From assembly GCA_014695325.1 (NCBI GenBank), contig JACJNZ010000039.1, positions 620,001 to 684,000 of the forward strand: a DNA stretch of 64,000 bases, written 5' to 3'. Below the pieces are notes generated by a model. The model worked only from the letters and a program-made list of their open reading frames with translations. It was not told where the DNA came from and searched no databases. Origin of the DNA: Cyanobacteria bacterium FACHB-502 (lineage in GTDB: Bacteria > Cyanobacteriota > Cyanobacteriia > Elainellales > Elainellaceae). Position numbers and translations under genes: made by a program. This document shows positions 14,739-64,000 of the stretch, piece by piece (the stretch's first letter is position 1; every line of letters begins with the position of its first letter).

Positions 14739-16764
<2,026 letters not shown>

Positions 16765-16772
16765 GAGTTTGG

Positions 16773-17053
16773 GGGTGTTTTGATAGGGTTAGCTACGGTG
16801 TAGAAACAAGCGATGTGAAGCAGTTTCCCCAGGGTGGTAATCGAGTTTGCTCAGTCGTACCTGACGAACCACCCATAGCCTCCAGGAAACTAAACCTGTT
16901 CAAGGTCCCCTCTTGCTCTTTTAGAGCGGCAGGTTAAAAGTTGGGGGAGTTAAGGAACTGCAAGGACTGAAACAAAGCTCAGAATTAGCAGGCTAAGAGC
17001 GGTCGTTGTTCCCTAGCATCCACATAATTCCCTGGCAGCCCCACAAAACACCC
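16773..17053 (+). ncRNA. Candidate structured RNA or non-autonomous element after eno
   Basis: Arms GGGTGTTTTG (16773-16782) and CAAAACACCC (17044-17053) are perfect complements 281 bases end to end, extended by GGGTT (16786-16790)/AGCCC (17037-17041). Inside lie three further stems. The first is AGTTTCC (16822-16828)/GGAAACT (16885-16891) enclosing GGGTGGT/ACCACCC (16832-16838, 16868-16874). The second is AACCTG/CAGGTT (16893-16898, 16930-16935) enclosing GCTCT/AGAGC. The third is GGAAC/GTTCC (16954-16958, 17008-17012). A 12-bp palindrome CCTTCTAGAAGG overlaps the right end. The conserved cores of rnpB, tmRNA and SRP RNA were not found. The strand is assumed from eno. A MITE is the main alternative. 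Confidence 0.4.
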
Positions 17054-17213
17054 TTCTAGAAGGACACACTCCGCCTAATTTTGCTTCCTGATATAGATTT
17101 CTTCCGCGTTGGACGATCGCACAATAGGTTTAATCAAATTTTTCTTTTACCTATAGTAAATTTTGATTGAACCGATTGGTTGTGGTTGCCCTGCTGAATT
17201 GCGGAGATAAATT

Positions 17214-18071
17214 ATGCGTTGGGATTTTGGTCGGCGAAGCCGAAATGTAGAGGATCGGCGCGGAATAGGAGGGGGTGCAGGTGTACCGATCGTAGGAGGC
17301 GGTATTGGTGCAGTGCTGCTGGCATTGGTGGTTGCTTTGCTGGGTGGCGATCCGAGCGCGATTTTTGAGCAGGCTCAGAGCCCAAGCACCGTTCAAACCA
17401 ATCGACCCCTCGAGCCCGGACAGGATCAGCAGGCTGAGTTTACCTCTGTAGTATTAGCCAGCACTGAAGACACCTGGGGCGCGTTGTTTCAGCAATCGGG
17501 TGAACAGTATGTTGAGCCAAAGCTCGTGCTGTTTAATGATGCGGTTCGATCTGCCTGCGGCACAGCAGAATCGGCAATGGGTCCGTTTTACTGTCCGCGT
17601 GACCAGTCGGTTTATATTGATTTAAGCTTTTTCAACGAGATGCGAACTCGTCTAGGTGCGCCCGGTGACTTTGCTCAGGCGTATGTCATCGCGCACGAGG
17701 TGGGGCATCATGTGCAGAACTTGCTTGGGATTTCCAATCAAATACGGAGCCTCCAGCAGCAGGTCGGAGAACGAGAGGCAAATCAACTTTCGGTGCGGCA
17801 AGAGCTTCAGGCAGACTGCTTTGCCGGAGTTTGGGCACACCACGCCGATCGCAATCAGATTGGCATTGCCCTCGAACAGGGTGACATCGAAGAAGGATTA
17901 AATGCCGCCAGCGCGATCGGCGACGATCACCTGCAAGAGCGATCAAGAGGCTACTCGGTTCCAGACTCTTTTACCCACGGCAGCTCAGCACAGCGTGTCC
18001 GCTGGTTTGAACAAGGCTTGCAAACGGGTGAGCCCGACCAGTGCAATACGTTTGAGGTGGCAAACCCGTAA
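17214..18071 (+). CDS. Neutral zinc metallopeptidase (YpfJ-like)
   Basis: A 285-residue member of the putative neutral zinc metallopeptidase family. The N-terminus (MRWDFGRRSRNVEDRRG) is the family signature and is followed by a Gly-rich membrane segment at about residues 25-45, giving a single-anchor protein with the enzyme domain outside. The zincin motif HEVGHH lies at 161-166 and the downstream acidic ligand region at LQADCFAGVWAHH. SACG and FYCPRDQSVYIDL are also typical. The substrates of this family are not established. It is followed by a hairpin terminator facing rpsF. Confidence 0.9.
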   Translation: MRWDFGRRSRNVEDRRGIGGGAGVPIVGGGIGAVLLALVVALLGGDPSAIFEQAQSPSTVQTNRPLEPGQDQQAEFTSVVLASTEDTWGALFQQSGEQYVEPKLVLFNDAVRSACGTAESAMGPFYCPRDQSVYIDLSFFNEMRTRLGAPGDFAQAYVIAHEVGHHVQNLLGISNQIRSLQQQVGEREANQLSVRQELQADCFAGVWAHHADRNQIGIALEQGDIEEGLNAASAIGDDHLQERSRGYSVPDSFTHGSSAQRVRWFEQGLQTGEPDQCNTFEVANP

Positions 18072-20414: not shown

Positions 20415-20782
20415 GGTAGCTTTATTCTATGTCAGGCTTCCCGGATTGCTATAGCAATTGATACGCCTTGTGAAGGAGTTTCATTAATTTCAACATTTTT
20501 TTAAACTAACCGTTTTAAGAAGAGGTTTGAAAAGGATCAGAAAGTGCGGCCTTACCCCTTAAATCCCGCAGCCTTGGGGGCCTTTGAATTCCCTAAAGCA
20601 AGCGAAGTTTCCCCCAGAATCATCCTGTCAGGGGGCAGTTCGTGAAAAGCAGCATTTTTGAGCCATCCCCTCACCTTTTGACTTTGGGTCAATTCTTTGC
20701 AAAATCAAAACTCATCCCTACCACCGTAGGAATCCTTAGCCCGTCTGAATATGATGTGCAGGCGACCCTGTAAGGAATTTCT
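20415..20782. other. Spacer with dispersed repeat fragments
   Basis: It contains GGATTGCTATAG (20443-20454), an inverted copy of the 12-mer at the left end of the ilvE leader element, centred on the palindrome TTGCTATAGCAA. The stretch 20555-20640 has alternating CCCC/GGGGG tracts (for example CCTTGGGGGCC and TTTCCCCCAG), as in degenerate cyanobacterial intergenic repeats. No gene was seen. Confidence 0.4.
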
Positions 20783-31332: not shown

Positions 31333-31989
31333 GTGCATGTCCTGCTCATAATCGATCCGCTGCCTGCTGATCAGGATGATTTGCAGGCCCAGTCTATTTC
31401 TGCGATCGAACAGGCGATCGAACAATTTCCCGTTTCTACGGAGTCTTCAGTTTCGATCGTTTGTAGCGATCAGCCGATCGCACTTCAACCCGCAGATCTG
31501 CTCTGTCCGCTAACGCTCAACCTACCGGATTCCCTGGACTGGAAGGGTCAGGCAATTTATAAAGTCTGTCGAGACGTAGAGGGATTACGCGATCGCGTCC
31601 AGCAGGCACTTCTGGTTCCGATCGCGACAGGAGAATTCTGGTTGCCGATCGTCCTGACGGCAAAAGGCGCACTTTACGCCGAAGCCATCTGTCGTGAAAA
31701 TTCTCGCTACTATCAGCCGCTCCATTTGCCCGATCTGCACCGTCAGGCTCTTTATCGCCTCGCCCATCGCCTTTTGCAGGAACTGAACGCGCCGCCGTCG
31801 GTTTACCTGCTTCAGTTTGGTTGGACAGATGGGCAGATTGGCTTCGATCGCCTGTATCCCTTTCCGGCAGAAGCGGCGATTGCTAGTCTGAAGGTTCAAA
31901 CCCCAGATCTTTTTGCCTGTCACTGGCAATGCTTAACGTCTCAGCCAATTTTCGATGTGTACATTCCAGGGAATGTGGTGTGGCGATGA
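31333..31989 (+). CDS. Conserved hypothetical protein
   Basis: 218 residues from GTG (a TTG one codon earlier is equally possible). No signal or membrane segment. The sequence has an alpha/beta look (HVLLIIDPLPADQDD, GEFWLPIVLTAKGALYAEAI) and a Tyr/Arg-rich central helix (LPDLHRQALYRLAHRLLQEL), ending in a region with SVYLLQFGWTDGQIGFDRLYP. I do not recognise the family, but composition and codon use match neighbours and it resembles proteins restricted to cyanobacteria. DedA follows on the same strand. Confidence 0.7.
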   Translation: MHVLLIIDPLPADQDDLQAQSISAIEQAIEQFPVSTESSVSIVCSDQPIALQPADLLCPLTLNLPDSLDWKGQAIYKVCRDVEGLRDRVQQALLVPIATGEFWLPIVLTAKGALYAEAICRENSRYYQPLHLPDLHRQALYRLAHRLLQELNAPPSVYLLQFGWTDGQIGFDRLYPFPAEAAIASLKVQTPDLFACHWQCLTSQPIFDVYIPGNVVWR

Positions 31990-32119
31990 GAAGCACTTCT
32001 CTCGTAGGAGTAATCGCCCTTCGCGAATTGACACGATCGCTGATATTACGTCAAGATGGGAATCATTAAAGGCTGTCACAAATCTTTGTAAAGTCCTATT
32101 TCTAAGGTTACTCATTACC

Positions 32120-45647: not shown

Positions 45648-45803
45648 CAAGAATTCAGGAATTCAGGGAGCCTCATGATATGAAACGGAGCCTTCTCCAA
45701 TCCTCAAAGTTCCTCTCCTTAAAGTTCCTCAATTCGGCGGGATTTAGGGAGCAATGCAATCGCTCGAACACTCCTCCCACCCCTTCCCAAGTTCCGGTGG
45801 CTC

Positions 45804-46715: not shown

Positions 46716-46821
46716 ATCAGATGTTTGAAAAGCCCTAAATTTTACCTTCTTTTGGACTTTCAAAGTTTCCCAAGATTGGGAGATTTAGGAGGCGACGCAG
46801 CACCGTAATGTGCCCTTTAGC

Positions 46822-63059: not shown

Positions 63060-64000
63060 TTAGAGTTCTAAGGGAAGGGGTCTGGAGCGATCGTGGACTG
63101 GGATGCTTACCCAGCGAGGGTCAAGGGTGAGGTTTTCCAGAGTTCCATCAGGGTGGATCAGGAAGGTGTCTTCGACTTTGGCAGCAGGGAGGCTTGGGTT
63201 CCAGGCGATCGTCATATTGGCAGCGAGTTGGTCAGTAGTCGTTGGGGTGGCGACAACTTCGCGGGAGAGATAGCCTGTGGTGCCGCCCTGGTGGTGTTTC
63301 AAAATACCGTCGGGATAGCCGTGCTGTTCGTAGGTTTGCTTGAGCGTCTGGTAAACCTGATTCAGAGGGGTCTCGGGCTTAGACAGATCGAGGGCGACAG
63401 CTTCAATTTCGCGCACTTGGCGATGGCGGTTTTGCTCTTCCTCAGATAGTTTTCCGAAGGAAATAAAGCGGGTGAGGTTGGCGTATAGCCCAAAGCCTCG
63501 CGCACAAAAAACCATCATTGCCCGGTGTCCGATCGCTTCTCCGGTGGGAACGGCATGGCGATACAGCGGCAAGCGTCGCTCTCCGGCAACCAGCGTCAGG
63601 GTGGGGTGAAGTCCTCTTGCCCACATTGCTTTTGCGCCTGCGCCTGCTAATTCATACTCAGTCCAGTCGGGCTGTGCCTGCTGCATTGCTTCGGTCATCG
63701 CTTCGCTGGCGAGTCGTCCGACTTGACGATAGCGATCGATCTCACCGGGCAATAAAATCCGCTTTTGCTGAATCAGGGAATGGGGTAAGGGAAACTCGCC
63801 CGACGCGGGACAATCGCTAATAACTTTGCCGCCTCCAGTCACCTCCTGGATAAAGGCTTTTTGCGGTTCCTCATCTGCCCAGGGACTTGCCTCAACCTGG
63901 TAGATATTTCCAGACAGTTCCTCGTCTTTGAGTCGCTGCGCTTCAATTTCGTTGGTGAGAATGTACGCGCCATTTTGCGTGATCAGCACATCCGCAACAC
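63060..64000 (-). CDS. M24-family peptidase, N-terminus outside window
   Basis: The last 313 codons of a minus-strand gene. The frame stays open to the window edge (VADVLITQNGAYILTNEIEA), so a GTG at 63989 is not the true start. The region 90-300 has the pita-bread fold of Xaa-Pro aminopeptidase/creatinase relatives: EYELAGAGAKAMWARGLHPT, HRAMMVFCARGFGLYANLTR and HHQGGTTGYLSREVV, with the HxGG of the family and a final WNPSLPAAKVEDTFLI. Several canonical metal-binding residues are altered, so peptidase activity cannot be assumed. Such proteins are common in cyanobacteria. Confidence 0.8.
   Translation of the reverse strand, partial: VADVLITQNGAYILTNEIEAQRLKDEELSGNIYQVEASPWADEEPQKAFIQEVTGGGKVISDCPASGEFPLPHSLIQQKRILLPGEIDRYRQVGRLASEAMTEAMQQAQPDWTEYELAGAGAKAMWARGLHPTLTLVAGERRLPLYRHAVPTGEAIGHRAMMVFCARGFGLYANLTRFISFGKLSEEEQNRHRQVREIEAVALDLSKPETPLNQVYQTLKQTYEQHGYPDGILKHHQGGTTGYLSREVVATPTTTDQLAANMTIAWNPSLPAAKVEDTFLIHPDGTLENLTLDPRWVSIPVHDRSRPLPLEL

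Follow-up and report, generated by a model that had tools for sequence, protein, structure and literature searches.

Results

Our analysis concerned a 281-nt segment (16773-17053) in a 64,000-nt stretch of the genome of Cyanobacteria bacterium FACHB-502, the whole of which we refer to as the window. The segment lies between eno and a gene for a putative neutral zinc metallopeptidase, both on the + strand. As originally noticed, it begins directly past eno: the last base of the eno stop is 16764, and the segment runs from 16773. The features of the locus are as follows.

15487-16764, + strand: eno (enolase), upstream neighbour; an ORF with Pfam matches to Enolase_N and Enolase_C
16773-16782, + strand: left outer arm GGGTGTTTTG, probably part of a chance inverted repeat, judging from chance-level counts
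16808-16847, + strand: piece A, one member of a roughly 35-nt dispersed repeat family (GCGATGCGAAGCAGTTTCCCC...GGGGTAATCG), matched by a profile built from 29 other copies (E 5.4e-8)
16843-16980, + strand: piece B, putative full extent of a decayed MITE-like repeat, with ends GAGTTTGCTCAGTC / GACTGAAACAAAGCTC forming an imperfect inverted repeat
16879-16955, + strand: part of piece B matched by a profile built from 21 other copies (E 1.5e-16)
16915-16927, + strand: palindromic core of piece B, GCTCTTTTAGAGC, seen in the fold and with pairs kept among copies
17044-17053, + strand: right outer arm CAAAACACCC, probably the partner in the chance inverted repeat, on the same counts
17214-18071, + strand: putative neutral zinc metallopeptidase gene, downstream neighbour; an ORF with a Pfam match to Zn_peptidase

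The first start listed for the eno ORF is a TTG at 15433; the ATG at 15487 was picked by eye. Identity between the enolase and its match is 77-95% for seven relatives (G001, G006, G048, G028, G014, G013 and G020) and 58-65% for the remaining matches listed. Six relatives have two enolase matches, and two enolase lineages seem to coexist in the group. When genome contigs were scanned for the metallopeptidase, the best locus was 68% identical. Upstream of the metallopeptidase gene stands a palindrome (17127-17174; TTTAATCAAATTT ... AAATTTTGATTGAA) that is kept in G001, the other genus member compared, where the two arms have changed in a matching way; it is perhaps an operator or a hairpin.

Fold of the segment and its outer arms

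Folded as RNA, 16773-17053 reaches -94.1 kcal/mol, a level matched by 2 of 200 shuffles (z -2.75); on repetition z was -2.63 with 100 shuffles and -2.17 with 25. The segment therefore folds somewhat better than its shuffles. The pairing first noticed by eye is present: GGGTGTTTTG (16773-16782) pairs fully with CAAAACACCC (17044-17053) in ten exact closing pairs, and the inner stems appear in the minimum-energy fold, among them a 7-bp hairpin around GCTCTTTTAGAGC. Among 227 tiles of 281 nt from the window (25 shuffles each), one had a lower z and 22 lay at or below the segment's energy. By z the segment is thus near the top of the window, which is unusual, yet it had been picked by hand. The sole tile with a lower z, 63507-63787, folds at -110.4 kcal/mol (z -2.89, 25 shuffles).

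We then took the segment apart. Without the 10-bp arms its z is -1.05; piece B alone (16846-16982) gives 0.11, and the two halves joined without piece B give -2.02, values indicating that much of the excess stability comes from the outer pairing. That so much of it rests there, and not on the repeats, counts against reading the segment as repeat debris.

Outer pairing of this kind is supplied by chance many times per window. Exact 10-mer inverted repeats whose arm starts lie 30-300 nt apart number 30 in the window, as against 13-21 in ten Markov sequences; arms of this sort are therefore frequent, and the real window has somewhat more of them than the Markov model. When inexact inverted repeats were scored with 60-nt ends and a span of 300, the score of the outer pair was reached in 17 of 3180 tiles from the window (one of them its own) and in 19 of 3180 from a single Markov sequence. 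The supposition that arms and nested stems would seldom arise together by chance is thus unconfirmed, the arms being at chance level. A further pair, GGAGT/ACTCC (16764-16768 / 17068-17072), is located outside the arms.

Genome-wide, the arm sequence shows no enrichment (19 matches with at most 3 mismatches vs 25 for a reversed-pattern control), and no second place in the genome has both arms at a gap of 245-275. Compared with the ends of the B repeat family, the arms show 3 and 4 mismatches, inside the control range. Given the chance-level pairing, the failure to recur as a spaced pair and the lack of enrichment, we rejected the outer arms as MITE ends; they are probably a chance inverted repeat.

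Two dispersed repeats within the segment

Searching the FACHB-502 genome with 16740-17080 yielded 14 non-self matches at E < 0.01, all of them to piece A or piece B, and weaker matches, up to E 10, on a few further parts. Two stretches, 16765-16809 (about 45 nt) and 16981-17078 (98 nt), had no convincing match to anything searched.

A piece A probe matched at least 40 places in its own genome (the best 40 of 139 candidates, all matching). Eighteen of 30 piece A loci fall in ORFs of at least 150 aa, about like random positions (149 of 220). Piece A is a repeat occurring in genes and between genes, unrelated to piece B. A second copy in the window lies at 31979-32020 (E 1.9e-6).

Piece B belongs to another dispersed family, for which a probe made from one copy gave at least 35 matches, the probe and the window copy counted, among the best 40 of 141 candidates. 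A profile that excludes the window copy finds its best match within the 64 kb at 16879-16955 (E 1.5e-16). Three more diverged matches to this profile occur at 45682-45781 (+ strand, E 1.5e-6), 20519-20646 (- strand, E 6.4e-5) and 46741-46807 (+ strand, E 7.4e-5). The family lies mostly outside genes: 1 of 25 B loci, the window's included, is inside an ORF of at least 150 aa, vs 149 of 220 random positions. Five pairs of the core GCTCTTTTAGAGC are kept in 20 of 22 copies, again with the window's included, and in copy L150 a core pair is kept through a change on both sides.

The window's piece B is about 140 nt long and has no transposase gene. Its left end was equalled by 10 of 2000 shuffles, measured against a consensus picked after the copies had been seen; its right end, equalled by 815 of 2000, is not significant. 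The ends were guessed by aligning three copies one at a time with the segment, the L196 alignment being meaningless (score 3), and 16843-16980 is the presumed extent of the window copy. Piece B looks like a decayed MITE.

Family ends and an IS4/5-type insertion sequence

The better B copies (L135, L139/L197, L196 and others) end in GAGGNTGTTTGAA-type inverted repeats. With up to 2 mismatches the left end GAGGNTGTTTGAA is found in 6 of 21 other B copies; among control stretches, which were scored for this end alone, the figure is 18 of 300. For the right end, TTCAAACANCCTC, the best match lies 63-67 nt past the hairpin core in 15 of the 21.

An exact search for GAGGNTGTTTGAAAA led to five places, all with the inverted partner. 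Four of these mark the ends of elements that are 94, 276, 180 and 161 bp long, the 161-bp element being B copy L139 and the 276-bp element L194. By eye, the 180- and 94-bp elements have a B-like inner sequence in common, which is mostly missing from the 276-bp element. The fifth place bounds a 910-bp element (L195, 1501-2410) with ends GAGGTTGTTTGAAAAG / GAGGACGTTTGAAAAG. This element holds two overlapping ORFs in different frames on the - strand (1534-1926 and 1923-2402) and matches Pfam DUF4096 ('putative transposase of IS4/5 family') and DDE_Tnp_1; a transposase split in this way is as expected from programmed frameshifting or from decay. Because the family ends are common to the B copies and the 910-bp insertion sequence, the B copies look like non-autonomous elements related to one of this type.

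Elements with these ends also fold well. With 100 shuffles each, z was -2.45 for L135, -1.57 for L139, -3.17 for L196, -4.09 for L193 and -1.73 for L194, so self-complementarity is usual for elements bounded in this way.

Target site duplications, proposed originally as a mark of a MITE, were not convincing in any of the seven elements with both ends read. An identical flanking trinucleotide occurs in 0 of 7, and TA stands on both sides of L154 alone; T-N-A adjoins 10 of 14 element ends, a raw, uncontrolled count. As no target duplication was demonstrated, we term piece B MITE-like and not a proven MITE.

Comparison with relatives

Two genomes of the genus were compared, that of FACHB-502 and G001. 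The G001 eno, 95% identical in protein, is followed by the metallopeptidase gene as in the window, and the segment is absent from the spacer between them. Homology ends at the eno stop and restarts 120 nt on in G001 and 314 nt on in the window. Between its two genes G001 has some 115 nt of other sequence and hence no clean empty site, and with one other genome of the genus compared, gain in FACHB-502 and loss in G001 are indistinguishable. Conservation after orthologous eno with compensatory changes, which a functional RNA had been expected to show, was therefore not seen in the sole genome compared that has the same gene pair. In the G001 spacer there is a single terminator-like hairpin carrying a T run, against 0.4 expected from shuffles, and in the window spacer there is none (0.7 expected).

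More widely, no second whole copy was found in the genome itself, in 60 genomes of relatives, in 36 family genomes or in the two of the genus, FACHB-502 being counted within each of these sets. The expectation of copies elsewhere in the genome thus holds for pieces A and B, which are dispersed, and fails for the whole segment. At E 1e-4 or better, matches among the 36 family genomes came from FACHB-502 and G001 alone, in G001 only at piece B. Three family genomes (G009, G018 and G032) match solely at or near piece A (E 1.5e-4 to 6e-4); these matches come from the search of the 60 relatives and are not listed under the stricter limit used for the family genomes. The B-family probe matched 3 of 291 class genomes, with the best 2 candidates taken per genome: FACHB-502, G001 and one more of the family. 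No record of the plasmid collection matched the segment.

Search for known RNAs and signals

Scanned with Rfam 15 at the gathering score, the whole window gave no match, the segment included. Relaxing the limit to E 10 over 16600-17250 gave four weak matches, all at 17109-17193 and outside the segment; they fall on the 17127-17174 palindrome, are to plant or animal microRNA models and are surely chance. A simple consensus scan of 16700-17300 found no promoter- or terminator-like sites.

Discussion

We propose, at a probability of roughly 0.87, that the segment is spacer DNA with decayed copies of two dispersed repeats, one of them MITE-like. It would be a non-conserved intergenic stretch containing these copies. 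Piece B would most likely be the degenerate form of a non-autonomous miniature transposon that an IS4/5-type transposase recognising GAGGNTGTTTGAAAAG-type ends once mobilised, and the palindromic core of piece B would supply part of the segment's stems. Piece A would be a copy of a separate short repeat set against piece B, and the 10-bp arms around the two would be an inverted repeat due to chance. The segment as a whole presumably has no role as an RNA. Of the original suggestion of a MITE, the kind of element survives in the inner piece B, and the anatomy does not, since the 10-bp ends are at chance level.

Two other explanations deserve weighing against these decayed repeats. The whole 281-nt segment might be one decayed MITE with the 10-bp arms as its terminal inverted repeats and with A and B inserted or belonging to its interior. 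Its arms are exact and imperfect pairing continues inward from them, the fold weakens once they are removed, GGGGGTGTTTTG is similar to the ends of some family copies (for example GAGGGTGTTTTAA in L157), and other elements with family ends are as long as 276 bp (L194). Yet the arms score no better than chance (17/3180 real vs 19/3180 Markov tiles), recur nowhere else in the genome as a pair at a gap of 245-275 and do not exceed the reversed-pattern control in sequence. Their 3 and 4 mismatches to the family ends are within the control range, and no identical flanks were seen by eye. We consider a single MITE of this length improbable.

Alternatively, selection might act on the segment as a structured RNA gene or as a 3' untranslated element of eno serving in processing, stability or termination. 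Its z of -2.75, set among the 227 window tiles, is the second lowest, and the segment follows eno immediately. Since the terminator-like hairpin of the sister spacer has no counterpart in the window spacer, the eno message may be ended here by something else. Of 22 copies of family B, 20 keep the core hairpin pairs, one of them by a two-sided change; such retention of a palindrome, however, is also expected of a MITE or of a DNA palindrome. The segment is, moreover, missing from the sister spacer, has no second whole copy among the 36 family genomes and no Rfam match, and consists in part of dispersed repeats present at unrelated places. For the same absences from Rfam, from the G001 spacer and from the family genomes, and with no promoter- or terminator-like site in the consensus scan of 16700-17300, the originally proposed novel RNA or eno 3' regulator is unsupported, the reading as an eno regulator included. 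The structured-RNA reading draws little support from beyond the fold itself, and we regard an RNA under selection as highly improbable. Also very doubtful, if a shade less so, is a combination in which repeat debris replaced the terminator-like hairpin seen after eno in G001 and the hairpin array, a co-opted MITE-like copy, now serves as the 3' end or stabiliser of the eno mRNA.

The two dispersed repeats can be set beside known elements. Small dispersed repeats of cyanobacteria were reportedly treated by Elhai and co-workers in 2008; piece A resembles these in being short, of high copy number and both genic and intergenic, a likeness of kind. The 910-bp element of L195, with the family's GAGGNTGTTTGAAAAG-type ends, resembles IS4/5-type insertion sequences carrying DUF4096 and DDE_Tnp_1; unlike these, the window copy of piece B has no transposase and measures about 140 nt. 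For Anabaena sp. 90, 147 MITEs of 77-541 bp are reported, 132 of the 147 intergenic; they were classed as type II, having no similarity to insertion-sequence ends of the same genome (PMC3542288). The piece B family is like them in being short, non-coding, multicopy and mostly intergenic, with a palindromic fold and terminal inverted repeats. It is unlike them in that the ends of its better copies are common to an insertion sequence of their own genome, and the window copy, for its part, is decayed and without clear ends. The Nezha MITE is likewise a cyanobacterial miniature inverted-repeat element, a comparison drawn from the title of a reference in PMC10969869. The accessible papers on cyanobacterial MITEs and small repeats hold no description of family B that we could find, and a text search of the accessible literature for the hairpin letters of the piece B core returned no occurrence.

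The segment is thus most likely ordinary mobile-repeat debris, and the earlier observation of it was real but over-read: palindromic repeats in a cyanobacterial spacer can pass for a long structured RNA when read by eye. For FACHB-502, the analysis links a dispersed repeat family of the genome to an IS4/5-type insertion sequence by their like ends; the finding is otherwise routine. If it were true that the repeats end or protect the eno message, the locus would offer a modest case of mobile DNA put to a new use by co-option.
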